Below the pieces are notes generated by a model. That model was not told the origin of the DNA. It saw only the letters and a program-made list of their open reading frames with translations, and made no database searches. A program made the position numbers and the translations under genes. Of a stretch of 22,154 nucleotides of DNA, positions 7,345 through 20,056 are shown one piece after another. How positions within the stretch are numbered: the stretch's first letter is position 1; every line of letters begins with the position of its first letter. Source of the stretch: a virus; IMG/VR virus record IMGVR_UViG_3300025120_013106, positions 1-22,154 of that record; one strand, written 5' to 3'.

Positions 7345-9209
7345 AAAGTGATTTTTTAGATTCAATCGGGGTTGAAGTCTCAACCTTAACGCGAGAAATC
7401 AAGGAAAGAGTTTGGATTCCTCGCGCTCGTTTGAATTTTGGCGCCTATTGCGAGGAAAATATCATCCTAAATTCAAGTGAAAATAGCGCGTACGCTGGTC
7501 CGTATTCGCGAGAAATGACTCCTTCAGTCTCTCGTTTTCTTGAGGAATTTTTGGACGGTGGTGGTGGTGAAAGGTGGCGGGAGTGTTACGGGGCTAAAGG
7601 TTCACAAGCTGCGGTTACTGCTCATTCATTAATGGAGATGGTTCGAAGGGCTGATTATGCTCCTACAAACATTGTTTACGGGATCGACGCTCAGAAAAAT
7701 GCCGGGGCTATTGCGGAAAGATACGTTGAGTTTTTAAAAAGCTCGCAGTCAATGGGCGATATTGTTGCCAAGCTTCCAGAGTCTTATTTGAAGGGCGACG
7801 TGATTTCTCTGCCAGGGATGAAATGTTATTTTGTTGGTTCTGGCTCTGTGGGTCAAGCGGCTAGCAAACCCGGCGTTGGCCTCGTTGTCATCGATGAAAT
7901 AGACACCCATAAAGAAACAAAGGTAGACGGGTCGACAGTTCACCTTTTCGCACAACGGGGCAAGGCAACGGTCAGCGGGAAAATCCTGGGCTTTTCAAAA
8001 CCTACCATTGAGGAGGGGCAAATCTGGCAGTTGGTTAATACTGGTTCGGGTCACCGAGATTTTGTTCCGTGTAAACATTGCGGGCATTTTCAATATCTTA
8101 AAATGAGCCAGGTTCGCTACCAACATTTGCGCGACAAGTTTGGCGACCTTGATCTTGCTAAGGTGATCCAGGGGGCAGAATACGAATGCGAGAGTTGCGG
8201 AGGGATGCACCAGGAGTCAGACAAGAAAGAAATGCTCGCGAACGGGGAAGTCAGGGCAACCAACTACCTCGAGAAAGGAGAAGGCGACGCAAAGGAAAAG
8301 GTTCCTGCTTGGCTCCCGAAACGAATGAGTTTTTACCATAACGACCTTTATGCCCTCTGGGAGAATAGCCGCTGGGGAAACCTAGCTGCGGAAAGACACG
8401 CGGCTGGGCGGGAACCAGTTAAGCTTAAAGGATTTCTCCAGGATAGACTCGGTGAAGCTTGGGCGGAAGGCGGAGCTCGAAGGGTGCGCTTGAGTGACGT
8501 CAGGGATATGTGTGGTGACTACCGCCGGGGAACCGTAAATAAAAAGCCCATCCTTTGCGGAGTCTTTGCGGATACCCAAGACGATTCGTGGAAGGCCGTT
8601 AAAGTCGGATTTTCTGCGGACGGGGATATTATGGTTTCTGATTGGGGGTCGTTTCTTACCTGGAAAAATTTACTGTCTTGGGCTCGAGCCGGAATTGACC
8701 ACGATGGCGTGAAATACTCGGTTCGATGCAATCTCACTGATGAAGGGGGGCATCGGACTTATGAGGTCAGAAATAATTGCTCGAAGCTTGCGCCCCTGTT
8801 TAATCCTTCAAAAGGTATAGGTGGCATGCAGGTGAGGCAACGGGGTGGCGACCTCCTTCGTTGGAGTAAAAGCCGAGTCTTTAAAACAACACAAGAAGGA
8901 ATGAGATTGGTCAAGGTGCTTCACTACGATGATGATTCATATCGGCGGCTTTTGTATCGAACGCTCATTCTGGACCGCGACCAAGTCGACGAAGACGGGG
9001 TTGAGGTCGAGCAATTTGGAAAGCTTACCTTTCCCGTTGACGCTCTTCGTGACGATGAATTCCTCCTTGAAATCTGCAGAGAGTACCAAGTAAAAAAGGC
9101 GGGAAAATGGGGATGGGAACGAGAATCTGGTCCGAATGATTTTGGAGACGCTTTAAAAATGTCGGTGATTGGTCGAGATGTTTGGTGCCGTTCAGCGGTT
9201 CGAGATTAG
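7341..9209 (+). CDS. terL: Terminase large subunit, GpA family
   Basis: 622 residues. It packages DNA into the prohead using an N-terminal ATPase and cuts it with a C-terminal nuclease. GpA-type features are GPYSREMTP at about 53-61, Walker B VVIDEID at 182-188, and a zinc-ribbon insertion with CKHC at 244-247 and CESC at 283-286. The nuclease core begins near GVFADTQDDSW at 407-417, where Asp411 is a likely metal ligand; a late acidic motif is GPNDFGDALK near 605. Walker A is poorly conserved: the expected place holds GAKGSQAAVT at 84-93, without a standard GKT/S. It is coupled to the small subunit by ATGA and ends the early-side operon. Confidence 0.9.
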   Translation: MKSDFLDSIGVEVSTLTREIKERVWIPRARLNFGAYCEENIILNSSENSAYAGPYSREMTPSVSRFLEEFLDGGGGERWRECYGAKGSQAAVTAHSLMEMVRRADYAPTNIVYGIDAQKNAGAIAERYVEFLKSSQSMGDIVAKLPESYLKGDVISLPGMKCYFVGSGSVGQAASKPGVGLVVIDEIDTHKETKVDGSTVHLFAQRGKATVSGKILGFSKPTIEEGQIWQLVNTGSGHRDFVPCKHCGHFQYLKMSQVRYQHLRDKFGDLDLAKVIQGAEYECESCGGMHQESDKKEMLANGEVRATNYLEKGEGDAKEKVPAWLPKRMSFYHNDLYALWENSRWGNLAAERHAAGREPVKLKGFLQDRLGEAWAEGGARRVRLSDVRDMCGDYRRGTVNKKPILCGVFADTQDDSWKAVKVGFSADGDIMVSDWGSFLTWKNLLSWARAGIDHDGVKYSVRCNLTDEGGHRTYEVRNNCSKLAPLFNPSKGIGGMQVRQRGGDLLRWSKSRVFKTTQEGMRLVKVLHYDDDSYRRLLYRTLILDRDQVDEDGVEVEQFGKLTFPVDALRDDEFLLEICREYQVKKAGKWGWERESGPNDFGDALKMSVIGRDVWCRSAVRD

Positions 9210-9221
9210 GAACAAAAAAAA

Positions 9222-9271
9222 GTGACGAAAAGTTACATTTTAGGGTTGCATCATACGTAACGATAAGTTAC
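9222..9271. promoter_or_regulatory. Two 15-bp operator-like sites
   Basis: GTGACGAAAAGTTAC (9222-9236) and GTAACGATAAGTTAC (9257-9271) agree in 13 of 15 positions and are imperfect or perfect inverted repeats (GTAAC-N5-GTTAC). They start 35 bases apart, a little over three helical turns. They lie in the only 100-base gap before the three-gene AT-rich cassette. The downstream HTH protein at 9898 may bind here. A terminase recognition site is an alternative. I could not identify a clear promoter. Confidence 0.55.
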
Positions 9272-9309
9272 CTTTTTTACATCGAAGCAAGAGACCGCTT
9301 CACGTTGAT

Positions 9310-9558
9310 ATGAAACTAAGAAACGCCAAAAACAAGTTAGAGAAATCAGGTTTTGCTGTAAGAATTAAACCTTGGGGCTGTTACAAAGCCGAAAGAGAAT
9401 TTGGAAAATACGTCATAGAATTCCAAGCTGATTGTGATGGGGATATAGGACATTTTTCTGTCAGGCGAAAAGATGATTTGCCAGATATGCAGTCAGATTA
9501 CTGCCCTTATTTCTTTTTTGATACCTGCAAAAGAGCCATTGAATTTGCATCAGACTAA
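9310..9558 (+). CDS. Small unknown protein of AT-rich cassette
   Basis: 82 residues. It begins with a basic helix (KLRNAKNKLEKSGF) and continues with alternating strands, including YVIEFQADCDGDIGHFSVRR and a LPDMQSDYCPYFFFDTCKRA segment. It has four cysteines but no clear metal motif. The DNA is visibly richer in A+T than the terminase and portal genes on either side, which suggests separate origin. No Shine-Dalgarno sequence and no TTGAC element precede it. It looks like the many small accessory proteins of phages; function unknown. Confidence 0.5.
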   Translation: MKLRNAKNKLEKSGFAVRIKPWGCYKAEREFGKYVIEFQADCDGDIGHFSVRRKDDLPDMQSDYCPYFFFDTCKRAIEFASD

Positions 9559-9592
9559 TAGATATAAAATTTGAAGTCTAAAAAATAAAACC

Positions 9593-9898
9593 ATGAAAAA
9601 AACAAATTATCACTTTGAAAAAATCGCAAAGGCTCGGCTTGAGTCAACTTACGGGGACATTGATGAGTGGGAAGACGAGTTTATTGATGAAGATTCGGAG
9701 ATCGTAACGACTCGAGAGACTCTTGAAGATTTTAAAGAAGGTTCAAAAGGCTGGGCTGAAGCAAGCGGGTTTCGCTCGTTTGATCTTGAGGGGCATTCAT
9801 GTTTTTTTTGGGAGTCAATGCAAGGATTCAAGGGGCAAGCTCGCGAAAGTATAGTTGTCGTTGATTTTGGAGATTTTCGGTGTGCCTACAAATTTTAA
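9593..9898 (+). CDS. Small acidic unknown protein of cassette
   Basis: 101 residues, strongly acidic (DIDEWEDEFIDEDSE near 22-36), with a hydrophobic, strand-rich C-terminal half (SFDLEGHSCFFWESM, then ESIVVVDFGDFRCAYKF). An A-rich leader precedes the ATG. Its stop overlaps the next start in TAATG, so it is coupled to the HTH gene that follows. An acidic partner before a small HTH protein resembles toxin-antitoxin or anti-host pairs, but I see no motif of a known toxin. Confidence 0.5.
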   Translation: MKKTNYHFEKIAKARLESTYGDIDEWEDEFIDEDSEIVTTRETLEDFKEGSKGWAEASGFRSFDLEGHSCFFWESMQGFKGQARESIVVVDFGDFRCAYKF

Positions 9899-10074
9899 TG
9901 ACGTCCGAAGAATATAAATCAATTCGAAAAAAGCTCGGCCTGACTCAGGCCGAGCTTTCGGCTGTTCTTGGTGTTTCTAGAAAAACCATAAACTTTCGAG
10001 AAAGCGGCTCTACTAAAATCACCGAGGAAGCTCGCCTGGCGATTCTTTTGCTTAAAAAAAACAAACGGCCATAG
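9898..10074 (+). CDS. Small Xre-type HTH regulator
   Basis: 58 residues from the ATG at 9898, which shares a base with the previous stop; the frame is open to a GTG at 9880 but that overlaps the upstream gene. EYKSIRKKLGLTQAELSAVL, then GVSRKTINFRESGSTKITEE, is a complete five-helix Cro/C1 HTH with little else. Such mini-regulators usually bind a nearby operator; the paired sites at 9222-9271 are the obvious candidates. The gene also carries a perfect 12-bp hairpin (see the entry at 9927). Confidence 0.72.
   Translation: MTSEEYKSIRKKLGLTQAELSAVLGVSRKTINFRESGSTKITEEARLAILLLKKNKRP
9927..9958 (-). terminator. Perfect 12-bp hairpin inside the HTH gene, terminator-like on the minus strand
   Basis: AAAGCTCGGCCT (9930-9941) and AGGCCGAGCTTT (9947-9958) pair perfectly around a 5-base loop. 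Six A precede the GC-rich core on the plus strand, so a minus-strand transcript would read a GC-rich stem and then TTTTTT, the form of an intrinsic terminator. On the plus strand only three T follow. The sequence encodes the conserved HTH residues KKLGLTQAEL. It may stop antisense transcription, or the palindrome may be a by-product of coding. Confidence 0.45.
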
Positions 10075-10075
10075 A

Positions 10076-10095
10076 TTGACAAGCGGTGGCTCAAT
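10076..10095 (+). promoter_or_regulatory. TTGAC start-associated element, gpW-position gene
   Basis: TTGACA begins one base after the preceding TAG stop. Fifteen bases separate TTGAC from the ATG at 10096. The spacer ends in GGCTCAAT, close to the spacer before 12281. Confidence 0.6.
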
Positions 10096-10413
10096 ATGAG
10101 TCAACCGATCAATCGAGCTCTCGTTAGAAGTCTTGCCAGGCTTCACACTGTCGCAGAGCTCACCACTAAGCTCGATGCCGCAACCGCTGAGCTCGAACAA
10201 GCAATGTCGGCGGAAGTCGTGGTGACAGGTGCCAACATGAAAGAATCGGGAACCACTGGAGAATATTTGAGTGGAGCCCTAGATTTAAAGGTGAGAACCT
10301 ACGAGGCCGCTATCGGGCTTCGAAAAAGGACGGATGCCGGGGCAGGCACTAACGGCGGGCCTAACCGAAAAATGAATCACGTTAACTTTAGATTCCGCGA
10401 GTGGGGATTCTAA
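10096..10413 (+). CDS. Small protein in gpW (head-tail joining) position
   Basis: 105 residues. The first 40 are helical and rather hydrophobic (ALVRSLARLHTVAELTTKLD, then AATAELEQAM), followed by a short strand segment (AEVVVTGANMKES) and GALDLKVRTYEAAIG. Lambda and its relatives place the small head-tail joining protein gpW between the large terminase and portal, and this gene holds that place. I cannot see enough gpW sequence to assign it by motif. It starts after a TTGAC element and has no Shine-Dalgarno sequence. Confidence 0.5.
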   Translation: MSQPINRALVRSLARLHTVAELTTKLDAATAELEQAMSAEVVVTGANMKESGTTGEYLSGALDLKVRTYEAAIGLRKRTDAGAGTNGGPNRKMNHVNFRFREWGF

Positions 10414-10417
10414 GCGG

Positions 10418-10437
10418 TTGACGTAGTCGCCTAACGC
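10418..10437 (+). promoter_or_regulatory. TTGAC start-associated element, portal gene
   Basis: TTGACG with 15 bases to the ATG at 10438, four bases after the preceding TAA stop. No Shine-Dalgarno sequence is present. Confidence 0.6.
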
Positions 10438-11964
10438 ATGGGGCAGGACTCAAAAAAATCACGGCGAGGCACTAGGGCGGGAAAGAAAGTTCAGGCCAAG
10501 CGGAAGACCGCAAAAGGACCGGTTGACGGCCTTCCAAAAACAAAATCTGACCTGGTCAAAATGATTTCCTCCTGGGATGCCGCAAGGCATTCCGACCGTC
10601 GTGGCCGGGTTGTCATGCCGTCACTTAATCCGAAGCGAAGAGTTTCACCGACGGAAAGGCTGGAGATTTCCAGGAAAGTTGAGGCGGCCGAGCAGAATGT
10701 TGGATTTGTAAAACGTGCCATTGAGGGCCCGGCTCGGCTTGTTGGAAATTTGCACCCACAGAGCCAGGCTGGCAATGCGGACTTTGAAGCCGAGATCGAA
10801 GAAAAAGTTGGAAACAGATTGAAAAACCATCTAGCATTTGACGGGGCGGGGAATTTCGATTTTTTGGACTGGCAAACCTGGGTTCGAGAATCAAAAATCA
10901 GGACTGGCGATTGTCTGACTGTTTTGGCCTCGGGGCCGGATGGGGCGGCTCGCGTGATGTGTTACGAGGGGAACCAGATCGGCGACGGTCAAGGAAGACG
11001 CGACCAGCCGGAAAACCTTTATGATGGAATCTTTCTTGACCGCTTTGGTGGACGCTCTGGATTTCAGCTTTTAGACGATGAAGGAAAGGCGGCGAAGGTT
11101 GTTTCTCGCGATCGAGCCATTTATCACTCAATCGGAGGGCGAGCCGGGCGGGTTCGATCAGTGTCTGGTTTGGCTCATGCGGTTGCCAACTTCCTCGATA
11201 TGGTCGAAATTATAAGTGACACCAAGCACGGAATTAAGGTGGCTGCCTTGTGGGGGGCTTGGATTGAACAAGCGGCAACCGAAAGTAATGAAGATCCAGG
11301 GGAAGACCTCAGAGGCTTTCTGGAGGCGGCGAGTGAAACTGCTGAAATTGCTGAGGTCGAAAATCTTCAAGCCGGGGAAACGTTGGCGGACGGAAATGTT
11401 CTTTCTGTCGAGGATGTCGTCCAGGGCGGTCGCTTCCAAGAGTTTTCTCCAGGGCAGAGCCTGCACACCATGACAGACACGCGTCCTCATCCAAACGTGC
11501 TCGGTCTTTTGTCTTGGTTGATTAGAGACATGGCTTGGGGGCTTCCTCACGGTGGGCTTTCTCCCGAAGTTCTATGGGACGCGTCTCAGATGAATGGCCC
11601 CGGGATGCGCTTTGTGATGGCGGAAACTCGGAGATTTGTCGCTGATGAACAAGAACGCGGGAGACGCGACTGCCAACGTATTTGGATGTACTTCGCCGCT
11701 AAGGAATCGAAGCGGGGCAATCTGGTCATTCCCGCCGAGTTGCAGGATACTTGGTGGAAGACGTCTTGGATTCCTCAAGCCGATTTGACGATCGACCGGG
11801 GCCGCGACGGGAAGCTTGATCTTGCTCTCCTCGATCAAGGGTTAATGACTCGTGAAGAATGGTGGGCTCGTCAGGGGAAAGATTGGAAGACGGAAGAGGC
11901 GAGAGTTGCCAGAGAAAAACAATTTATCAACGAACAACGGGCCGCGGCCGGTTTGCTAGATTAG
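10438..11964 (+). CDS. Portal protein, lambda gpB family
   Basis: 508 residues. Portals form the dodecameric ring at the capsid vertex through which DNA passes. Lambda-type features are visible: an N-terminal helix with SRKVEAAEQNVGFVKRAIEG, a wing with TGDCLTVLAS, and IISDTKHGIKVAALWGAWIE. Near 370-405 is the signature stretch GLLSWLIRDMAWGLPHGGLS, then PEVLWDASQMNGPGMRFVMA. The first 30 residues are very basic (KKSRRGTRAGKKVQAKRKTA). Length is typical for the family. It follows the gpW-position gene and precedes the HAD and protease genes. Confidence 0.88.
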   Translation: MGQDSKKSRRGTRAGKKVQAKRKTAKGPVDGLPKTKSDLVKMISSWDAARHSDRRGRVVMPSLNPKRRVSPTERLEISRKVEAAEQNVGFVKRAIEGPARLVGNLHPQSQAGNADFEAEIEEKVGNRLKNHLAFDGAGNFDFLDWQTWVRESKIRTGDCLTVLASGPDGAARVMCYEGNQIGDGQGRRDQPENLYDGIFLDRFGGRSGFQLLDDEGKAAKVVSRDRAIYHSIGGRAGRVRSVSGLAHAVANFLDMVEIISDTKHGIKVAALWGAWIEQAATESNEDPGEDLRGFLEAASETAEIAEVENLQAGETLADGNVLSVEDVVQGGRFQEFSPGQSLHTMTDTRPHPNVLGLLSWLIRDMAWGLPHGGLSPEVLWDASQMNGPGMRFVMAETRRFVADEQERGRRDCQRIWMYFAAKESKRGNLVIPAELQDTWWKTSWIPQADLTIDRGRDGKLDLALLDQGLMTREEWWARQGKDWKTEEARVAREKQFINEQRAAAGLLD

Positions 11965-11965
11965 C

Positions 11966-12259
11966 ATGGCAAAAAGTAAATTTGCGCCCGCGAGGTGTAT
12001 TTCGATTGACGTAGATGGAACGCTTTTGAAGCGCGGGAAATTAAACTGGCCCCTCGCGAATTGGGCAAAGCAGAAAAAGCTCGAGGGCTTCGAGGTCATC
12101 TTGTGGACTGCTCGCGGCCGACCACATGCCGAGGCCGTGGTGGAAAGGTTTGGGCTCGAGGATCATTTTTCGGCTGTCATCGGGAAGCCTGGTTACATTG
12201 TCGATGATATGGGATGGAAGTGGACCAGGTTCACAAAGATCGTGACGAAGTTTCTCTAG
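11966..12259 (+). CDS. Small HAD-superfamily hydrolase
   Basis: 97 residues. HAD motifs are complete: DVDGTL at 15-20 (nucleophile Asp15 and acid/base Asp17), ILWTARG with Thr48, GKPGY with Lys74, and IVDDMG with Asp80-Asp81. No cap domain is present, so the active site would be open and may accept a large substrate such as a nucleic acid or protein phosphate. It lies between portal and head protease, one base after the portal stop, where lambda-like phages have no phosphatase. It has neither a TTGAC element nor a clear Shine-Dalgarno sequence and may be translated by reinitiation after the portal gene. Confidence 0.78.
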   Translation: MAKSKFAPARCISIDVDGTLLKRGKLNWPLANWAKQKKLEGFEVILWTARGRPHAEAVVERFGLEDHFSAVIGKPGYIVDDMGWKWTRFTKIVTKFL

Positions 12260-12280
12260 TTGACGGCCTGGGCTCAATCT
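12260..12280 (+). promoter_or_regulatory. TTGAC start-associated element, head protease gene
   Basis: TTGACG begins immediately after the TAG stop of the HAD gene, with 16 bases to the ATG at 12281. The TTG is in frame and could be misread as the start codon. Confidence 0.6.
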
Positions 12281-13462
12281 ATGGCTCGAAAAGAATCTTG
12301 GTTTGAAATCAGCAACTCGGCGGACCTTGCGCCGCGTAACGAAGGCGGCCGCGTCGCACGCGTCGACATTATGGGGCCAATTGGTGGCTGGGATGTTTCT
12401 GGTTCTGAGTTTTTGCGAGAGCTTAAAGACCTGGGAGACGTCGACTCCATAGATTTGCGGATCCATTCACCGGGCGGTTCGGTACTAGATGGGTTAGCCC
12501 TTTTTAACGGAATCAAAAACCATCCGGCTCATGTTGTCGCCAGGGTCGAAGGGCTTGCTGCTTCGATGGGTTCAGTCGTATTGATGGCAGCCGATGAAGT
12601 GGAAATCCCAGAAAACGCTTATGTCATGATTCACAACGTCAGCGGCGGAGCCTACGGGGACATTGAGGAGCTAGAATCCATGGCTGCCCTGATGAGAAAA
12701 CTTCAAGACGACGTGACCGATCTTTATGCCGACGCGACCGGGAAAGACAGGAGTGAAATAGCCAAGCTGATGGCGGAAGAGACTTGGATGAACGGAGAAG
12801 ACGCGGTCCAAAATGGATTTGCAACCCGCGTGTTGGAGCCAGTCAAAGCGGCCGCTTGTGCCGACCTTGAGACGCTCGTTTCTAAATTTGAAAACGTCCC
12901 GGCGGCCGTGCTTGAGCTACAGGGAGAAGAGCCTGCCGAGGAGAAAGCCAAGGTCGAAGAAATCGAGGACTCACTCGAGGAAGACCATGCCGAAGAATCC
13001 GACGAGGAATCGGCCGAGGCCGACCAGGAGGAAATCGAGAAAGAATTGCAGGACGAAGTTAAGGCGAAAGCCGAGCTCTCGACTTGGGGAAGAATTTTGG
13101 CCGCTCTATCGGGTGATAAGAGCGCCGAGAACGACGGAGGATCGAGCGCTAAAGCTGCTCTCCAACGTGCTGAAAAACTCGAGGCGGAACTCTCCGGCCG
13201 AGTTGATGAGATCGACAAAATCGAGGCTGAGCTTCAAATTTTACGGTCTCAAAACAAGGAGCTCGAAAGCGCCGCTTTAACAGTCGAATCCCGCTTGATT
13301 GAGTGTGGTTTTGACTTTGCAGAGGCGGCCGACCTTCCGGCTCCAAACCAGAACAAAATCGGGAACGCCCTGGAGACTTACCTAGGAATGCAACCAGGTC
13401 AGGAACGAAGAGAATTCTTTGCAAAAAACCGCAAAGAAATCGAAAGACTTCAATCAGAGTAA
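12281..13462 (+). CDS. ClpP-like head maturation protease fused to scaffold region
   Basis: 393 residues from the ATG at 12281, preferred over the in-frame TTG at 12260 because that TTG belongs to the TTGAC element. Residues 24-195 are a ClpP/S14-type serine protease: oxyanion glycines in HSPGGS (62-67), nucleophile Ser95 in GLAASMG and His118 in MIHN. Glu167 occupies the position of the third residue in ETWMNGEDAVQNGF. From about 205 the protein is very acidic, then forms a coiled coil (about 285-340: AALQRAEKLEAELSGRVDEI), as in scaffolding proteins. In many phages protease and scaffold share one gene; the protease processes the scaffold during capsid maturation. It lies directly before the capsid gene. 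Confidence 0.85.
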   Translation: MARKESWFEISNSADLAPRNEGGRVARVDIMGPIGGWDVSGSEFLRELKDLGDVDSIDLRIHSPGGSVLDGLALFNGIKNHPAHVVARVEGLAASMGSVVLMAADEVEIPENAYVMIHNVSGGAYGDIEELESMAALMRKLQDDVTDLYADATGKDRSEIAKLMAEETWMNGEDAVQNGFATRVLEPVKAAACADLETLVSKFENVPAAVLELQGEEPAEEKAKVEEIEDSLEEDHAEESDEESAEADQEEIEKELQDEVKAKAELSTWGRILAALSGDKSAENDGGSSAKAALQRAEKLEAELSGRVDEIDKIEAELQILRSQNKELESAALTVESRLIECGFDFAEAADLPAPNQNKIGNALETYLGMQPGQERREFFAKNRKEIERLQSE

Positions 13463-13506
13463 GGGCGACAAAAACTAAAACTAAAAAAACTTAACTATCT
13501 AAAAAA
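13463..13506 (+). promoter_or_regulatory. A-rich leader of the capsid gene
   Basis: The 44 bases before the capsid ATG consist largely of A, with repeats of ACTAAAA and six to seven A directly before the start. No Shine-Dalgarno sequence and no TTGAC element are present. An unstructured A-rich leader can support strong translation without Shine-Dalgarno pairing. Similar but shorter A-rich leaders precede the genes at 6685 and 9593. Confidence 0.45.
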
Positions 13507-14358
13507 ATGGCTAACTCATTCGCATCAGCTTTAGCAGTGGATACACTCGCTGAAGAATCAATTACAACCTTGGGGCCAGTGCTTTCCGTACTGGACAACT
13601 TCAGCTTAGACGTGGCTGTCAATCCCGTCGCTCCTGGCTCTCGCATCCAGGTCGAAGTCGTTTCGGGTGGCGCAACCGCTCAGACAAATCCCTCAAGCTA
13701 CACCTCAAGCAGTGACTCCACAAAAATCGCTCGTGCTGTCACAGTCAACCAGCACTCGATTTCATTCAAGGTTACTCAAGCCGAGCTTAACAACGGTCAC
13801 CGTCTTCGCTCACTTCTTCGGAAGAATCTCCAGGTTATTGGAACCGCTTGCCGCGATGCGGTTTTTGCTCCAATCACAGCAGCAAACTATGGGGCCGCTG
13901 TTCTTGATTCAACCGCGGCGGATTTCGACGCAAGCGATCTCCAGACCGTTTGGGGTGCTTGTAAAGACTTCCCAACTCGTCACTTGATTCTTGATGGAGG
14001 ATACTTTTCGAAGCTACTCCCAACAAACGCCGATTCGTTCCTTCCTGGTCAATCGGGTGCTTACGGTTTTGATTCAATCGGGATGAATAACGCCTGGGCC
14101 GGGGCTGAAGCGAAGTGCATTGGTTTTGTTGGATCACAAGATGCTCTTGCAATCGCTTCCGGAGAGCCAATTATGGACGATGAAATCCAGGATCTCCTGA
14201 GCTTCTACGAAGGCGTTGAACTTCCCGGAGGTTTAACGGCTTACCTTTCAAGCTTTACGGATCTTGCGACTCGCACTCGCTACATGAACATCAGCGTAAT
14301 GCTTGGTGCCGCTGTGGGCGATAATACGGCTGGAGCGATTATCACGGATGGAACCTAG
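13507..14358 (+). CDS. Major capsid protein
   Basis: 283 residues. Assignment rests on position directly after the protease-scaffold gene, size, and composition: even, few charged clusters, rich in Ala, Ser and Thr. Recognisable stretches are IQVEVVSGGATAQTNPSSYT near 46-65, a long helix at TQAELNNGHRLRSLLRKNLQ near 90-109 (the spine-helix place of an HK97 fold), and RHLILDGGYFSKLL near 158-171. Arginine codons are almost all CGC or CGT (8 of 9), while neighbouring genes use many CGA, CGG and AGG, which fits very high expression. An intrinsic terminator follows. No separate decoration protein is seen. Confidence 0.8.
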   Translation: MANSFASALAVDTLAEESITTLGPVLSVLDNFSLDVAVNPVAPGSRIQVEVVSGGATAQTNPSSYTSSSDSTKIARAVTVNQHSISFKVTQAELNNGHRLRSLLRKNLQVIGTACRDAVFAPITAANYGAAVLDSTAADFDASDLQTVWGACKDFPTRHLILDGGYFSKLLPTNADSFLPGQSGAYGFDSIGMNNAWAGAEAKCIGFVGSQDALAIASGEPIMDDEIQDLLSFYEGVELPGGLTAYLSSFTDLATRTRYMNISVMLGAAVGDNTAGAIITDGT

Positions 14359-14378
14359 AATTTAAAACAACCATTGGC

Positions 14379-14413
14379 AGCGCGGAGAGTCGGAAGGCTT
14401 TCCGCGCTTTTTT
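14379..14413 (+). terminator. Intrinsic terminator after the capsid gene
   Basis: AGCGCGGA (14379-14386) and TCCGCGCT (14401-14408) form a perfect 8-bp stem followed by six T. It lies 20 bases after the capsid stop. It must be leaky, or a new promoter must follow, because the next gene starts only 33 bases later. Confidence 0.85.
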
Positions 14414-14426
14414 GTGTCCTGGTGGA

Positions 14427-14446
14427 TTGACGAGATCGGTCAGACT
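14427..14446 (+). promoter_or_regulatory. TTGAC start-associated element after capsid terminator
   Basis: TTGACG with 15 bases to the ATG at 14447. It lies 13 bases past the T run of the terminator and is not next to a stop codon, so the element does not depend on an upstream stop. Confidence 0.6.
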
Positions 14447-14764
14447 ATGAGTTTGGCCACGTCCCGAATCGCATTTTTAGAGAAAGCACAAGAATCACTA
14501 GAGAGCGTTTTCCCTGGTTCAATTACGTATAGTGGCTCCACTTTTACCTGCTCGAGGTCTGGGCTTGAGGTCGTCCAGGGAGCCGAGCCCGGCGGGTTTG
14601 AAAACGAGGGTCGTGTCATGGTCCGGGTGAGAATCGCACACCTTCCAGCGGCTGGTCTCCCGAGAGAAGCCCCTATCGTTTTGGATTCGGTCGAGTACCG
14701 CGTTGAGGAGTGCTTACTCGAGCCTGGAGATGTGGCTTGGAGCGTTCAGCTTGAAACAGTATAA
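14447..14764 (+). CDS. Head-tail connector candidate
   Basis: 105 residues from the ATG at 14447; a GTG at 14414 lies on the terminator tail and is unlikely. A short helical N-terminus (TSRIAFLEKAQESLESVF) is followed by a strand-rich body with EGRVMVRVRIAHLPAAGLPR and VLDSVEYRVEECLLEPGDVA. Small beta-barrel stopper or head-completion proteins of siphoviruses have this form and lie just after the capsid gene. No family motif is certain. Confidence 0.5.
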   Translation: MSLATSRIAFLEKAQESLESVFPGSITYSGSTFTCSRSGLEVVQGAEPGGFENEGRVMVRVRIAHLPAAGLPREAPIVLDSVEYRVEECLLEPGDVAWSVQLETV

Positions 14765-14767
14765 ATT

Positions 14768-14977
14768 ATGTCACGAACAAAACGAGAATACGCCTATGAA
14801 AAGCGCGGCCGAGGGACCGGGCAAAAACCTGGAATGCAAAGGTTTTCAGGCGTCGAGTTTAAAGCGTTACGGCTCCTTGATGAGGTCCGGGAAGCGTGTG
14901 ATAAGTGGCTTGATGCTCACGAAGACCGAGGTTCGAGCCGGGATCGTTTTCGGTATGGGAAAAAAGGTAAAAAATGA
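14768..14977 (+). CDS. Small basic unknown protein
   Basis: 69 residues, highly basic and hydrophilic (SRTKREYAYEKRGRGTGQK at the start, RDRFRYGKKGKK at the end), with one predicted helix in the middle (FKALRLLDEVREACDKWLDA). It sits 3 bases after the connector candidate and overlaps the next gene in ATGA. The coupling supports translation. It could be a small neck or packaging-associated protein; nothing identifies it. Confidence 0.5.
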   Translation: MSRTKREYAYEKRGRGTGQKPGMQRFSGVEFKALRLLDEVREACDKWLDAHEDRGSSRDRFRYGKKGKK

Positions 14978-15660
14978 AGCTGAAGGTAACAGTCCCCGGA
15001 TCTGATCGCCGAAAAATTGAGAGAGAAACCGAGAAGTTGATCAAGGCATTAGGACTCTCAAATGATACTTTTGCAAACATGGCGGCCCGGTCGGTTCGTG
15101 ATACCGTTGCGCGAAATGTTCAACCGTTTGGGATGGGGCCGAAGGCAAAGAAAAAAGGCATGTCGGCAGTTAAAAAAGATCTTCGCAATATTTTTAAAGT
15201 TGTTCCTGACGCGGCTCGCGGCCGTCAAGGAGTGATCACTTCAATTGCAGGAGCGGATTCGTTTCACCAATCAAAACGAGGGTCAAGGGGAAGGACGAGG
15301 AAGCTTGTTTTGAAAAAAATGATCATTCGATCGATCTGGAACAGCTACTCTGAAAAGGTCAGTGAAAAGGTAGGAATGGCAAAAGGGTCGGTCCTTGGTG
15401 GTGCTCCGACGCAGTTGAAAACGAAGTTTCAGGGATGGGTTAAAAATTGGAAAAAGACCGGGTCTAGCTCCACAAAAAAGAAATTTTTGGGTAAAATGTG
15501 GATTTTTAAAGCAGAACCTAGGCACGTCGCAAGCGACCGAGTGATGGGTGAGCGCGGAATCAAAAAGGTGATGAAGGTCAAGGATCGAAACTTAAAAAAC
15601 CTTCTACGAAGAAAAATGAGGGCCGACCTAAAAAAAGCTCAAAAGAAAATCAACCGCTAA
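14974..15660 (+). CDS. Basic neck/tail-completion candidate
   Basis: 228 residues, strongly basic. The N-terminal part (RRKIERETEKLIKALGLSND, then TFANMAARSVRDTVARNV) resembles the start of HK97 gp10- or lambda gpZ-type tail-completion proteins, which begin with a helix and an AAR...VRD segment. The rest is rich in Lys, Arg and Ser, with no recognised domain. Position between a connector candidate and the tail-terminator candidate fits that role. It is longer than gp10-type proteins. The last 40 residues are almost all charged (KKVMKVKDRNLKNLLRRKMR). Confidence 0.45.
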   Translation: MKLKVTVPGSDRRKIERETEKLIKALGLSNDTFANMAARSVRDTVARNVQPFGMGPKAKKKGMSAVKKDLRNIFKVVPDAARGRQGVITSIAGADSFHQSKRGSRGRTRKLVLKKMIIRSIWNSYSEKVSEKVGMAKGSVLGGAPTQLKTKFQGWVKNWKKTGSSSTKKKFLGKMWIFKAEPRHVASDRVMGERGIKKVMKVKDRNLKNLLRRKMRADLKKAQKKINR

Positions 15661-15663
15661 CGA

Positions 15664-15684
15664 TTGACAAGCGGGGTTCCTTGC
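15664..15684 (+). promoter_or_regulatory. TTGAC start-associated element, tail-terminator gene
   Basis: TTGACA with 16 bases to the ATG at 15685, three bases after the preceding TAA. Its first ten bases (TTGACAAGCG) are identical to those of the element at 10076. Confidence 0.6.
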
Positions 15685-16119
15685 ATGGTGGTATCTGATC
15701 GGCTTCTGGTCGCCCTAGGCGAGTTTTTGAATCAAGACCTTTCGCTTGGGCTGACTCCGAGGCTCAGAGATTACGGCGGCACCAAGGCGGCCAAGACCAT
15801 AATTATAGATGCTGATGACCCCGTTGAGCACGAGGCACTGGATGGCGTTTATGAATTAGACGGTGAAGTGATTTTAAAATTCAGGAATCGAGACGTGGCG
15901 GATGAAACGCAAAGGAGCGAGCTTTCCGAAATCAACGAAGCGCTTCGAGCTCGGGCAATTGATTGGATCAACGACACGACCAACGCTCGCGGGTTAGGTA
16001 GTCACGAGCTCAAAATATTTGATCTGCGAACTTCAGACGGTTCTTTCGAGCAAGAAGATAAGTTTCTTTTAGGACGAGTCGGATTCTCCGCAATTATCGT
16101 CGGGATGGACCCTTCCTAA
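15685..16119 (+). CDS. Tail terminator candidate
   Basis: 144 residues from the ATG at 15685, preferred over the in-frame TTG at 15664, which belongs to the TTGAC element. Mixed helix and strand: SDRLLVALGEFLNQDLSL, KTIIIDADDPVEHEALDGVY, and a final hydrophobic strand RVGFSAIIVGMD. Gene order (connector, completion, this gene, major tail protein) and size match the gpU-type protein that caps the tail tube. Assignment is by position. Confidence 0.5.
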   Translation: MVVSDRLLVALGEFLNQDLSLGLTPRLRDYGGTKAAKTIIIDADDPVEHEALDGVYELDGEVILKFRNRDVADETQRSELSEINEALRARAIDWINDTTNARGLGSHELKIFDLRTSDGSFEQEDKFLLGRVGFSAIIVGMDPS

Positions 16120-16123
16120 TTGG

Positions 16124-16143
16124 TTGACGCTGTTGCGCAGGTT
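16124..16143 (+). promoter_or_regulatory. TTGAC start-associated element, major tail gene
   Basis: TTGACG with 15 bases to the ATG at 16144, four bases after the preceding TAA stop. Confidence 0.6.
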
Positions 16144-16536
16144 ATGAGCGCAAAGATTTACGGCACCTCAGACTTTAGTATGTTATCAGAGGCAGGGATG
16201 TTCGTCCAGGGTCTCGATGTTGATTTCAACATGGAGGAGGTGACACTTCCAAACGAAAGCGGCGAAGACGTCGCGGGAGCTTATACAAATCCAAGCGCCT
16301 CCATTACGATGGATGGTTTTGTTAACACGGCTGGGGCCGCATTTTCTTCAACGCTTGGTGCATCGTTAACCATTAACAACGCACTTGATGCGGCAAGCTT
16401 TATCACTGGAATTGCGGACGACGACGCAGGCGAAACGATTACAACAAGCGTCAAGCTTGGTTACTCAAATAAAAATTTCAAAAGTCTAAATATTGGCGCG
16501 ATTTTCCGCCCGCACATGGGCTCCTTAGTAACCTAA
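16144..16536 (+). CDS. Major tail (tube) protein
   Basis: 130 residues from the ATG at 16144 (a TTG at 16120 is upstream in frame). Strand-rich, acidic, with few lysines, and a typical small tube-protein pattern: FVQGLDVDFNMEEVTLPNES, ASITMDGFVNTAGAAFSSTL, TTSVKLGYSNKNFKSLNIG. Like the capsid gene, it is followed by a strong hairpin, as expected for an abundant product. It lies upstream of the tail chaperones and tape measure. Only one tube gene and no sheath gene are present, so the tail is probably non-contractile. Confidence 0.65.
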   Translation: MSAKIYGTSDFSMLSEAGMFVQGLDVDFNMEEVTLPNESGEDVAGAYTNPSASITMDGFVNTAGAAFSSTLGASLTINNALDAASFITGIADDDAGETITTSVKLGYSNKNFKSLNIGAIFRPHMGSLVT

Positions 16537-16554
16537 TTTCCTCACCGAAAAAAC

Positions 16555-16610
16555 AAGCGGTCGAACGGGGTTCTGTGTTTGTCTTTCATCTCCCGTCGGC
16601 CGCTTCTTTG
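16555..16610 (+). terminator. Terminator-like hairpin after the major tail gene
   Basis: AAGCGGTCGAACGGG (16555-16569) pairs with CCCGTCGGCCGCTT (16592-16605) through 14 pairs with one G-T and one bulged A. The loop is 22 bases. The following T run is broken (CTTTG), so termination may be partial. It lies about 18 bases after the stop. Confidence 0.6.
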
Positions 16611-16617
16611 TGCCTGG

Positions 16618-16638
16618 TTGACAGGTTGAAGCTCATCG
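16618..16638 (+). promoter_or_regulatory. TTGAC start-associated element after the tail hairpin
   Basis: TTGACA with 16 bases to the ATG at 16639. As after the capsid gene, the element follows a terminator hairpin (12 bases from the stem end). Confidence 0.6.
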
Positions 16639-17094
16639 ATGACAGAACAAAATATAAACCGGGGCGGCCCCGTCGTCTCGATGGGTGGCAACAGTGACGA
16701 AGCAAATTTTGACACGAGGGATTCACTTCTTGCAGGGGCTTTGATGGCTCTAGGAGTCGAGCCGATAGACGCGGAGCCGGTCAGGATCATTACTCGTGAA
16801 CATTTGAGCGGATCCACTTACCAATTCTTTTTCAAACCTGTCAGCAATTGCGGGAAATGGCGTACTCGCGAGCTCTTAGGGTACTGGGCTCAAGGGACCG
16901 AATGGGTGGAAAAAAATCCGGAACATCCTTTTGCCTATGCCATCGCAGCCGTGAAAAATTACCGGGGGCTCTTAGACTTCATTAATAAAAAGGTTCCTTA
17001 TGGCTGGGTCAGCCGTGGGAAAAGCTTCGCGATGCTTCCCCTGGACGCGTCCAGCAAAACTCAAGAAATTATTTTGGGGAGGATGTCGAAATGA
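16639..17094 (+). CDS. Unknown tail-region protein
   Basis: 151 residues. The first 30 are polar and probably disordered. The rest is mixed: AGALMALGVEPIDAEPVRII, STYQFFFKPVSNCGKWRTRE, a hydrophobic helix FAYAIAAVKNYRGLLDFINK. There is no recognised motif. It lies between the major tail protein and the tail chaperones and overlaps the next start in ATGA. Lambda-like phages usually have nothing here, so it may be an added tail protein or an accessory factor. Confidence 0.5.
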   Translation: MTEQNINRGGPVVSMGGNSDEANFDTRDSLLAGALMALGVEPIDAEPVRIITREHLSGSTYQFFFKPVSNCGKWRTRELLGYWAQGTEWVEKNPEHPFAYAIAAVKNYRGLLDFINKKVPYGWVSRGKSFAMLPLDASSKTQEIILGRMSK

Positions 17095-17489
17095 AAAAAA
17101 CTAAAAACAAAAACTTAGTTCTCACGCTTTTTTCAAAACGGCCGAAGGCGGGTCAATATACGCTCTACCCCTTGACGGCTGGTCGAATCGCTCTTTTAGA
17201 GGACAAAGGGAATCAGCTTTTCTCGGGGACGCTTAAGGAAGGTGATTCCGTCCAGTCCTATGACGTCTTTGAGGCCTTTATGGTATCCGTCTCGAGCGGG
17301 GAAGAGCTAGCGGAGCTTTCAATTCTAAGCGAAGATGAATGGAAGATTGCCACCAGGGCGTTTGGCTTTGACCTTGAGGATCAAACTTTGATGGAGTTTT
17401 GGGACGTGGTCGAGAACGAACGCAAAGCCATCTCGGCGGCACGGGCGGTGCCAAAAAAAAAGAGAGCGCGACGGGCTTCGAAAACCTAA
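17091..17489 (+). CDS. Tail assembly chaperone G
   Basis: 132 residues, read in the unshifted frame. It begins with a basic segment, then strands (GQYTLYPLTAGRIALLEDKG) and an acidic helical body (LSILSEDEWKIATRAFGFDL). It ends in a Lys/Arg-rich tail (KKKRARRASKT) that follows the slippery site. It precedes the tape measure gene, as G does in lambda-type siphoviruses, and would bind and keep the tape measure soluble during tail assembly. A Shine-Dalgarno-like GGGGAGGA lies about 8 bases before the ATG. Confidence 0.72.
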   Translation: MKKTKNKNLVLTLFSKRPKAGQYTLYPLTAGRIALLEDKGNQLFSGTLKEGDSVQSYDVFEAFMVSVSSGEELAELSILSEDEWKIATRAFGFDLEDQTLMEFWDVVENERKAISAARAVPKKKRARRASKT

Positions 17490-17734
17490 TCAACCCGCCA
17501 GGCGACGAAGCTCCGTGGTGGGCGACCTACGTTACAGCACTGGTCCCAGTCACCGGGCGGGATGACAAGTTTGTTCTGTGGGAGCTTCCCTATGCTCGGG
17601 GGCTTAGATACCTTCATGCAATCGCGGTGGCTAACGGAACCACGATGGAGCTCGAGGAAGGTGACCAGGAAAAGAAAGATTCTCTCTTCGACGGGTTCCA
17701 AGATTTACGAGCCCGGCACGGTCTCAACGATTGA
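17091..17734 (+). CDS. Tail assembly chaperone GT, -1 frameshift product
   Basis: Reading joins 17091-17462 and 17462-17734: 124 residues of G, then 90 from the -1 frame, 214 in all. The T part (ESATGFENLINPPGDEAPWW, then FVLWELPYARGLRYLHAIAV) has no start codon of its own that makes sense; a TTG at 17399 is the first possible one. Its reading frame is open from well before the slippery site to a TGA that lies inside the TTGAC element of the tape measure gene. In the family the T domain recruits the tail tube while G binds the tape measure. Confidence 0.72.
17456..17513 (+). promoter_or_regulatory. -1 ribosomal frameshift signal
   Basis: A run of nine A ends in G, giving the heptamer A AAA AAG (17456-17462) in the correct phase for G (codons AAA, AAG). 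This is the slippery site known from E. coli dnaX. Ten bases downstream a stem can form between 17473-17480 and 17506-17513: GCTTCG with CGAAGC, extended by one G-T and one G-C pair, with a 25-base loop. The stem is a candidate stimulator only; the heptamer and frame offset are the strong evidence. Confidence 0.75.
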
Positions 17735-17750
17735 CAACTGGGGCTAAAGT
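17731..17750 (+). promoter_or_regulatory. TTGAC start-associated element, tape measure gene
   Basis: TTGACA with 15 bases to the ATG at 17751. The TGA within TTGAC is the stop codon of the GT reading frame, so the element and the stop are merged. Confidence 0.6.
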
Positions 17751-19310
17751 ATGGCGGCACTGACGTATAAAGTAGGCGGAGATACAAGCGGTCTAGGCCG
17801 TGCGGTCTCGAGGGCTAAAGGAATGCTTTCTGATCTAGGAAGTGCGGCTAAAAACCTTGCGCTAGGCGGGGCGGTGGCGGGTTCTGTCGCGGCAATTGGG
17901 GGAGCGTTCCGGGGGATTAAGCTCGCGGCCGAAATGGAACAGGTATCGGTGGCAATGGAGGTCATGACCGGGAGCGCCGAGAAGGGCAACCGAGCAATTG
18001 AAGCTCTAATGAAGTTTTCAGATGAAACTCCCCTTTCCTCCGAAGACGTAGTCGCAGCGGGCCGGGCCTTGATCGCCTTTGGCACGGATGCAGATGATGT
18101 CGTAGGAGTTTTGCGAAAGGTCGGAAACGTCGCCTCTGGTATTGGGGCTCCAATTGGTGAGCTTGCAGAGATCTACGGTAAAGCTCAAGTAAGCGGCCGA
18201 TTGTTTGGCGAGGACATCAACCAACTCGCAGGACGAGGAATTCCCATCCACACGGAACTCGCGAAGGTTTTAGGAGTCACGAGCGCTGAAATCAAAAAAA
18301 TGGTGACCGATGGGAAAATAGGGTTCCCTGAACTCGAAAAAGCCTTTTCAAACATGTCGGCCGAGGGGGGCCAATTTGCGGGCATGTTAGCAAAGCAGTC
18401 GAAAACATTTTCGGGCCTTTTTTCTACTCTCGTTGCAAAGCTTAATAATCTACTGAGAGACGTCGGTCAGGGATTAATGGAATCTCTCAAGCCGGTCTTG
18501 AGCAAACTAATTTCTTTAGTCGATGAAAATAGTGCGGCCGCTAAAAGGTTTGGTCAAACGATTAAAGAAGCGGTCTTCGTGATTGTTGAGGCATTCAAAA
18601 CAGGCGTTTTAGGTGAGCTCTTAAAAGCCAGTTTTTTGTATGCATCTTCGTTTCTAGTCAATTCAGTCGTGGGAGGATTCGCCACGGCAGGAGAAATTCT
18701 TATGAAAGCGGCCGTCGGCGTCAGTGATATTATCTCAGGCATCTTTTCATCTGAGAAAGTCGCTGCATTTTTTAAGATGATGAAACTGGGGGCCTTTGAA
18801 ATGTTTGTACCAAAACAAGAGTTTGAGCCCTTTAGAAGTATGCGGCTTAAGAAGGAGCAAGAACTTATAAAAGATGTGACGGATTCGACAGATCGAATCG
18901 ACGGCGGAGTCGATGCGATATTTGATGAATTTGAAAAGGGGATTCCCGATTTAATGGATTTGGACAAGCAAAAGGACAATTTCATGAATATCGCAAATCC
19001 TCTTCTGGAAGCTGTCAGGAAAAACTTTGAAAAAATGTCTAACGATATTGCTGTTTTAAAAACGAGTGATATCGGCCAACCGTCTCGGGCGTCCCTTTTT
19101 GGTCTGGATAAAAACGAGGAAGAAAAAAAGGAAGAAAAGGACCCTTTTACTGATAATGTCTTGAGGCCAGTTCTGACAAGCCTGGGAAGAATCGGCGGAG
19201 CCGGAGAGGGAAGAAAAGGCGGCGTGTTCCGGATGGACTCCGAACGGAACAAGCTTTTGAAACAAATCGAATTTAACACAAAAAACCAGCTTGTGGCGGT
19301 CTTTGCGTAA
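17751..19310 (+). CDS. Tape measure protein
   Basis: 519 residues. Residues about 55-245 are the conserved tape measure domain: EMEQVSVAMEVMTGSAEKG, FSDETPLSSEDVVAAGRALI, GAPIGELAEIYGKAQVSGRL, FGEDINQLAGRGIPIHTELA, and FAGMLAKQSKTFSGLFSTLV. A hydrophobic stretch follows at about 275-330, as is common for proteins that may insert into the host membrane. The C-terminal part is helical and charged. Tail length scales at roughly 0.15 nm per residue, which suggests a tail near 80 nm. It follows the G/GT chaperones as usual. Confidence 0.92.
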   Translation: MAALTYKVGGDTSGLGRAVSRAKGMLSDLGSAAKNLALGGAVAGSVAAIGGAFRGIKLAAEMEQVSVAMEVMTGSAEKGNRAIEALMKFSDETPLSSEDVVAAGRALIAFGTDADDVVGVLRKVGNVASGIGAPIGELAEIYGKAQVSGRLFGEDINQLAGRGIPIHTELAKVLGVTSAEIKKMVTDGKIGFPELEKAFSNMSAEGGQFAGMLAKQSKTFSGLFSTLVAKLNNLLRDVGQGLMESLKPVLSKLISLVDENSAAAKRFGQTIKEAVFVIVEAFKTGVLGELLKASFLYASSFLVNSVVGGFATAGEILMKAAVGVSDIISGIFSSEKVAAFFKMMKLGAFEMFVPKQEFEPFRSMRLKKEQELIKDVTDSTDRIDGGVDAIFDEFEKGIPDLMDLDKQKDNFMNIANPLLEAVRKNFEKMSNDIAVLKTSDIGQPSRASLFGLDKNEEEKKEEKDPFTDNVLRPVLTSLGRIGGAGEGRKGGVFRMDSERNKLLKQIEFNTKNQLVAVFA

Positions 19311-19330
19311 TTGACAAACCGAATCATCTC
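19311..19330 (+). promoter_or_regulatory. TTGAC start-associated element with GTG start
   Basis: TTGACA starts directly after the TAA stop of the tape measure gene; 15 bases separate TTGAC from a GTG start at 19331. The element marks a GTG start that would otherwise be ambiguous. Confidence 0.6.
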
Positions 19331-20056
19331 GTGGCGAACAAAATTTATCATCCCGGAAACCTGGTTGCAATGCCAGGCTTCAAAGCAAGCAAAGATCGAG
19401 CTGGGCTCTGGACCGGGACACAAATGTATCACTGCACCGAGCAAGAAATTCTTAGATTAATGCCGAGGCAAGGGAGCCCGCATCCGAAGTTCCCTTATTT
19501 AGCTCTTGAAACCGTTGGTTTTGAGATTTTCCAAGAAGGCTTGGCAAAAATTACCGCCGGGTATGCAGGCGCTTCTTTCGGGTTTGATGGATCTTCGGAG
19601 CCGGAAGAGGAATATAATCTCGACATCTCGACCAGTGAGGAGCCAGTACAAACTCACCACCGCTATGACGAGCTAAGTGACGAGGACATTCTTGCGGCTG
19701 TCGAGCTTGCTAGAAATCCGCCTCGGTCCGAGTCAGGGAAAGAAGTGAAGAAGCCCAATAAAGATGATTGGCCGCCTTTGAAAGTAGAGCTTTACGAAGA
19801 CATCTCAAAGGGAAAAGAGGCTTATAGAGATCCCAGGGTAACATGGTCGAAACGCTGGATTTCAAAAGAAAAGCCGACCGATTTAAATAATATTGCAAAA
19901 ATTCAAGAGCCGGAGGGAAATCCTCCCCAGGTCGCCGATGATCGGAACTGGCTTAACATAGGGATTCGCTCCCGAATTCGTGGCAAGGTTTACGAGAACG
20001 AGGTCACCTGGGAACTGTCAGGGAGGGGCGGATGGCTTGAACGTTACTACAGTTAA
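19331..20056 (+). CDS. Tail-tip region protein, unknown
   Basis: 241 residues from a GTG chosen because of the TTGAC element. The N-terminal 90 residues have hydrophobic strands and aromatic residues (GLWTGTQMYHCTEQEILRLM, then FEIFQEGLAKITAGYAGASF). The middle (about 95-150) is acidic and probably flexible (EPEEEYNLDISTSEEPVQTH). The C-terminal part ends in IRSRIRGKVYENEVTWELSG. Immediately after a tape measure, siphoviruses carry distal tail and tip proteins; this may be one, but no family motif is visible. Confidence 0.5.
   Translation: MANKIYHPGNLVAMPGFKASKDRAGLWTGTQMYHCTEQEILRLMPRQGSPHPKFPYLALETVGFEIFQEGLAKITAGYAGASFGFDGSSEPEEEYNLDISTSEEPVQTHHRYDELSDEDILAAVELARNPPRSESGKEVKKPNKDDWPPLKVELYEDISKGKEAYRDPRVTWSKRWISKEKPTDLNNIAKIQEPEGNPPQVADDRNWLNIGIRSRIRGKVYENEVTWELSGRGGWLERYYS

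Follow-up and report, generated by a model that had tools for sequence, protein, structure and literature searches.

A near-invariant RTTGACR element at fixed distance before late-gene starts in a family of siphophages: a candidate translation-initiation signal

Why should one short motif stand at almost exactly the same distance before so many late genes of a phage? The question is raised by a siphophage genome piece of 22,154 nts (the window), taken from IMG/VR record IMGVR_UViG_3300025120_013106, which names no host. Its genes encode ParB-like, primase, terminase, portal, prohead protease and tape measure proteins as well as a protein in the coat position. A preliminary description of this DNA had listed nine copies of TTGACR at nearly constant distance from start codons and considered a translation signal unrelated to Shine-Dalgarno (SD) pairing, a binding site for a phage protein or an RNA-processing site.

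The distance is counted here between the first T of TTGAC and the initial base of the start codon, 20 or 21 nt thus leaving 15 or 16 nt in between, and gene starts were chosen by conservation and open reading frames. The base before TTGAC is always a purine as well, so the element reads RTTGACR. On the + strand of the late operon (10096..20056) it precedes the gpW-like gene (ATTGACA, 10075..10081; ATG 10096, distance 20), the portal gene (10417..10423; ATG 10438, distance 20, in relatives 20 or 21), the prohead protease gene (12259..12265; ATG 12281, distance 21), gene 14447 (105 aa; 14426..14432, distance 20), gene 15685 (144 aa; 15663..15669, distance 21), gene 16144 (130 aa with a weak tail-tube match; 16123..16129, distance 20), gene 16639 (151 aa; 16617..16623, distance 21), the tape measure gene (TMP; 17730..17736, ATG 17751, distance 20) and gene 19331 (241 aa, GTG start; 19310..19316, distance 20). 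Six copies hence lie at 20 nt and three at 21 nt, before eight ATG codons and one GTG. The coordinates and spacings reported earlier are all correct, as is the count of nine carriers among the 16 starts from 10096 onwards and none among the 11 before. Within the late operon, the HAD-like gene at 11966, the MCP gene at 13507, which has an A-rich leader, and the genes at 14768, 14974 and 17091 do without the element.

Many of the sites lie 0–4 nt past the upstream gene's stop codon, and the TGA of the TMP element is itself that stop codon. Genes 14447 and 16639, however, keep the element though the preceding stop is about 70–80 nt away. Directly before the first of these elements an intrinsic terminator hairpin follows the MCP gene (14379..14408, + strand), with an equivalent in the relative G004. 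A terminator-like hairpin after gene 16144 (approximately 16551..16609, + strand) similarly precedes the second; it was seen by folding, also in G004, and is not listed by a consensus scan.

The pentamer by itself is not rare, since seven further + strand copies of TTGACR in the late region (10523, 10838, 11785, 12006, 16709, 17172 and 20454) have no start behind them. Both strands of the window together hold 26 copies against 23.8 expected, i.e., no enrichment. What is improbable is the constant distance to starts and not the number of copies. The motif had been picked after being seen, and the unremarkable total would also suit a post-hoc pattern or an inherited similarity devoid of function. 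However, an unbiased search over all 5-mers and pairs of adjacent offsets ranks TTGAC at -20/-21 first, with 9 of 27 starts, while 1000 random sets of ATG/GTG codons, searched over all 5-mers and offsets, reached a maximum of 5, and this only once. The question of whether random starts give similar counts is thus answered in the negative. The split between late and earlier starts (9/16 and 0/11) has a p value of 0.0024. Together with the conservation described below, where the element stays invariant although the spacers of the relatives have diverged, and also in a genome of 26–61 % protein identity, the unbiased search refutes chance, an explanation to which we attach next to no probability.

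The preliminary description had proposed conservation in related genomes as a test, and the element is indeed conserved with orthologous starts in 12 related contigs and in one more distant genome. TTGAC is unchanged at all 67 aligned starts of the 12 contigs (335/335 bases). With the nine window copies this makes 76 instances, each flanked by purines and lying at 20 nt (34) or 21 nt (42), with no other distance observed. Spacers of equal length are 69 % identical in these contigs; in G004, the most diverged of the set, TTGAC is kept 45/45 against 37.5 % identity in the spacers. At five genes (portal, protease, 15685, TMP and 19331) the spacing shifts between 20 and 21 and nowhere beyond, which indicates that spacer indels happen but are limited; the orthologues of 19331 start with ATG and have the element at 20 or 21. 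Since 20 or 21 nt is maintained in 76/76 cases despite such indels, the distance is set from the start codon and not from the upstream stop.

Changes in the upstream neighbours leave the element in place before its downstream gene. Before gpW it is kept in 10/10 related contigs that hold the site, including those where three upstream genes are absent; gpW is preceded by an xre gene in the window and by terL in most relatives. Similarly, the protease gene follows either the HAD-like gene or portal directly, and the element persists in L004, L010 and L014, which lack the HAD-like gene. Both places vary in gene content: the window insert between terL and gpW (9310-10074) comprises two genes of unknown function and one of XRE type and is missing from most close relatives, xre being also there in G003, and the HAD-like gene (11966-12259) between portal and protease occupies a variable cargo position that is empty in the same three contigs.

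A pattern scan of viral contigs added a further member, G053 (32,616 bp), whose carrier proteins are 26–61 % identical to those of the window. RTTGACR stands 20–23 nt before 8 of 9 orthologues, for which the chance expectation is about 1e-20, and also before two downstream late genes and one gene that has no recognised window orthologue. It is absent in G053 at the orthologue of 16639 and at the coat gene; the latter carries the element in no genome and has an A-rich leader in most. The other contigs of the pattern scan (L043, L046-L055) gave at most single matches, and seven Moulinsart-like phage records (9–80 kb) showed no enrichment. In G001 (29,031 bp), a close and complete-looking relative whose sequence extends further, with tail, holin, amidase and integrase genes, there are 11 carriers, all of them late (head, tail, holin), and early genes never carry the element in the window or in its relatives. 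Because the closer genomes share kinship, their instances are not independent events, and the weight of the argument lies with G004, with G053 and with the finding of the element at nine to eleven different genes per genome. G003 departs in one gene: its 15685 orthologue (8070-9719 in the oriented contig) measures 549 aa vs 144 aa in the window, an apparent fusion or insertion.

Across 51 listed carrier sites from five genomes, RTTGACR is found at 51/51. Position +14, counted from the first T, is less strictly a pyrimidine (46/51; C 38, T 8), and in GC-rich genomes a G-rich stretch comes immediately before it; between RTTGACR and +14 there is little base preference. A pyrimidine occupies -1 in 44/51 sites, followed by ATG. 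The start lies at 20 to 23 nt, yet TTGAC and the C at +14 stay in register with each other (mean 1.19 bits). The 7-mer also occurs elsewhere in each genome, and no other + strand ATG or GTG of the window has RTTGACR 20 or 21 nt before it; specificity thus needs the start codon. GCTCA, which the preliminary description had seen in spacers, is confined to some genes of the window and its close relatives and does not generalise as a second box; the C at +14 takes its place. The earlier statement that the TTG is not an alternative start is borne out, about half of the sites being out of frame: distance 20 puts the TTG out of frame, and in the portal copy a stop codon follows in its own frame (TTG ACG TAG). 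A TTGA/TCAA hairpin at two window genes was also discarded, being not conserved and with pairing near that of shuffled contexts. More generally, the five genomes reveal no conserved base-paired structure of the RNA hairpin operator type, pairing of TTGAC being close to shuffled and without consistent direction, and Rfam models gave no match to the window at gathering scores.

How does the element relate to SD pairing? Most early genes have AGGAGG-type SD sites, and 5/8 early starts pair with the anti-SD at -6 kcal/mol or better. In the window, G001 and G003, carriers pair with the anti-SD no better than random 20-mers. In GC-rich relatives, on the other hand, 78 % and 91 % of carriers reach -6 kcal/mol or below (random, 46 % and 58 %). 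Since most carriers there have SD-like energy, the element does not simply replace SD, and the separate G-rich stretch of G004 and G053 may be SD-like. Nor is it a general signal of the host ribosome, because the early genes of these phages lack it.

The reading that we favour, and to which the sequence comparisons lead us to give an even chance, is that RTTGACR acts at the RNA level as a translation-initiation element of late mRNAs (head, tail, holin). Three properties point to placement of the ribosome: the element is strictly tied to the start codon, is unaffected by which gene lies upstream and tolerates a shift of one nucleotide. The element would lie about 20 nt before the start, where the mRNA exits the 30S subunit, upstream of the SD position, and could be recognised by a ribosomal component or by an RNA-binding factor made or induced by the phage; such recognition would help to put the AUG in the P site. 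A second, weak SD-like contact might come from the patch further downstream, i.e., the pyrimidine, mostly C, at +14 and the G-rich stretch of the GC-rich relatives. A constant register between the element and +14, with the start at 20–23 nt, fits a ribosome-bound site with flexible spacing to the AUG. Late-only use suggests a late-infection factor or a need of late mRNAs; no candidate reader was identified among the phage genes. The non-SD translation signal proposed earlier thus remains the best reading, short of proof.

Among the competing explanations, we regard a leaderless late promoter as unlikely, though it deserves the closest attention. Here RNA polymerase, carrying a specificity factor altered or made by the phage, would recognise TTGAC and the C at +14 in the DNA and begin transcripts at the AUG or no more than 3 nt from it. 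The preliminary description had dismissed a promoter on spacing only. Normal spacing is indeed unsuitable: a sigma-70 reading would place the -10 position within the coding sequence, and no TTGACA/TATAAT pair 16–18 bp apart was found at the elements among the scan matches. Sigma-54 (-24/-12) offers only a loose likeness in spacing, its bases differing and its transcript beginning inside the gene. A leaderless promoter is nevertheless kept as a rival because promoters of this kind seem to occur in the related verrucophage P8625: three of its late genes are preceded, at about 36 nt, by TTGACA-N17-TATTGG/TATCTG units, from which a start at the AUG is expected. The pyrimidine at -1 followed by A would suit a transcription start, and the common register of TTGAC and C+14 while the start moves, the restriction to late genes and the terminator hairpins just ahead of two carriers agree with such a promoter. 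However, no conserved -10 or -35 partner exists at normal spacing, and in G053 and G004 the stretch from element to AUG is GGGGCGGG-like and difficult to melt. About 12 bits are insufficient alone for a promoter, other sense copies exist, and neither a sigma factor nor an RNA polymerase could be recognised among the phage genes.

Two other mechanisms account poorly for the spacing. Cleavage of late polycistronic mRNA ahead of the individual starts, put forward in the preliminary description, would explain why the sites are intercistronic, often 0–4 nt past the upstream stop, and confined to late genes. A cut site requires no 20–21 nt spacing to the AUG, though, and shows here no conserved structure. 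The case is further weakened by the tie of the element to the start codon instead of the upstream stop, and by the TMP copy, where cutting would damage the upstream message whose stop codon it overlaps; we consider RNA processing improbable. Slightly less probable still is a set of phage repressor sites scattered across the genome in the manner of cluster A mycobacteriophage stoperators, whose published motif contains GTCAA. The phage is temperate, and its sites are short, asymmetric, in one orientation and in or near short intergenic gaps. Yet a transcription roadblock needs no constant distance to the AUG, the early genes on which a repressor should act lack sites, and the 7-mer alone is not specific enough.

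The closest precedent for RTTGACR is the start-associated sequence (SAS) of cluster K mycobacteriophages, for which the authors proposed a role in translation initiation, its reader not being known (PMC3203893). Both are short, asymmetric and repeated in one orientation upstream of many mostly ATG starts, and RTTGACR is conserved within one phage clade as SAS is across subclusters. SAS, however, is the 13-bp GGGATAGGAGCCC, situated 3–7 bp before the start with an SD core, and is found at non-structural genes only (PMC3203893), whereas RTTGACR differs in sequence, lies 20–21 nt away without an SD core and marks late genes including portal, protease, TMP, tail and holin. Cluster A stoperators share the many short asymmetric sites, mainly in one orientation, of a temperate phage, but they are transcriptional and bound by repressor, with no fixed AUG distance described (PMC6550527, PMC9283540), while RTTGACR keeps such a distance and is missing from early genes. 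Like the SD sequence, RTTGACR is conserved and stays within a limited distance of start codons; unlike SD (about -5 to -13), it spans about -22 to -15, roughly twice as far upstream, is not complementary to CCUCC, has no AGGAGG-like core and is nearly invariant. Finally, the distantly related P8625 has the same late gene order and a repeated TTGACA-containing unit before starts, but that TTGACA lies about 36 nt away and comes with a -10-like box and an inverted repeat, GTATC-N8/9-RATAC; no RTTGACR occurs there 20 or 21 nt before starts. The repeats of P8625 (L063; 5426, 10750, 15573 and 17515) stand 21–26 nt before four late genes with TTGACA or TTGACC upstream, and three of the four resemble -35/-10 promoters whose transcript would begin at the AUG. 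The word "promoter" is absent from the text of the P8625 phage paper. Moulinsart (L022), for its part, has a recurring GAGACGGCGGGGAATA-like stretch before several late starts (2808, 4684, 10632, 15339), perhaps an element of its own. A non-exhaustive literature search found no published report of RTTGACR.

The host of this phage family is likely to be a marine member of the Verrucomicrobiota, as judged from portal kinship. The nearest isolated phage is Akkermansia phage Moulinsart (26–28 %), and for the G053 portal it is Verrucomicrobia phage P8625, of a marine Puniceicoccales strain; the element is absent from both. The integrase gene of G001 is flanked by the 5' half of a tRNA-Met(CAU) (L032, 18434-18475), found also in G003, that is a probable attP, hence the family is temperate; this half might reveal the host tRNA gene. 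Marinovum was rejected as host: a single 5.6-kb family contig (L023, NYVC01000077.1) in a Marinovum MAG is probably misbinned, and the tRNA-Met half was not found in that MAG within 3 mismatches. Convincing portal relatives were lacking in 398 Pseudomonadota genomes, pattern counts in 40 Pseudomonadota genomes deviate from a reversed-pattern control in both directions, and integrase searches among phages and plasmids gave distant matches only. An early window gene (1463-1855) encodes DnaA domain IV (Bac_DnaA_C, E 7e-11), the rest of DnaA missing.

Some Verrucomicrobia are SD-scarce though their CCUCC is intact, which makes other start signals plausible in this phylum (PMC10783764). We tentatively suggest that a signal about 20 nt upstream is read by a late phage factor or a lineage-specific ribosomal feature, with or instead of the anti-SD, so that these phages may switch translation as a whole from early (SD) to late (RTTGACR) genes. 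Non-SD start signals of bacteria are poorly defined, above all in SD-scarce phyla, and a near-invariant 7-mer at fixed distance from late-gene starts offers a precise target for finding its reader. Should it prove to be a promoter, these phages would have a late promoter that is leaderless and lacks the usual boxes. Under either reading, the element aids gene calling in these phages.
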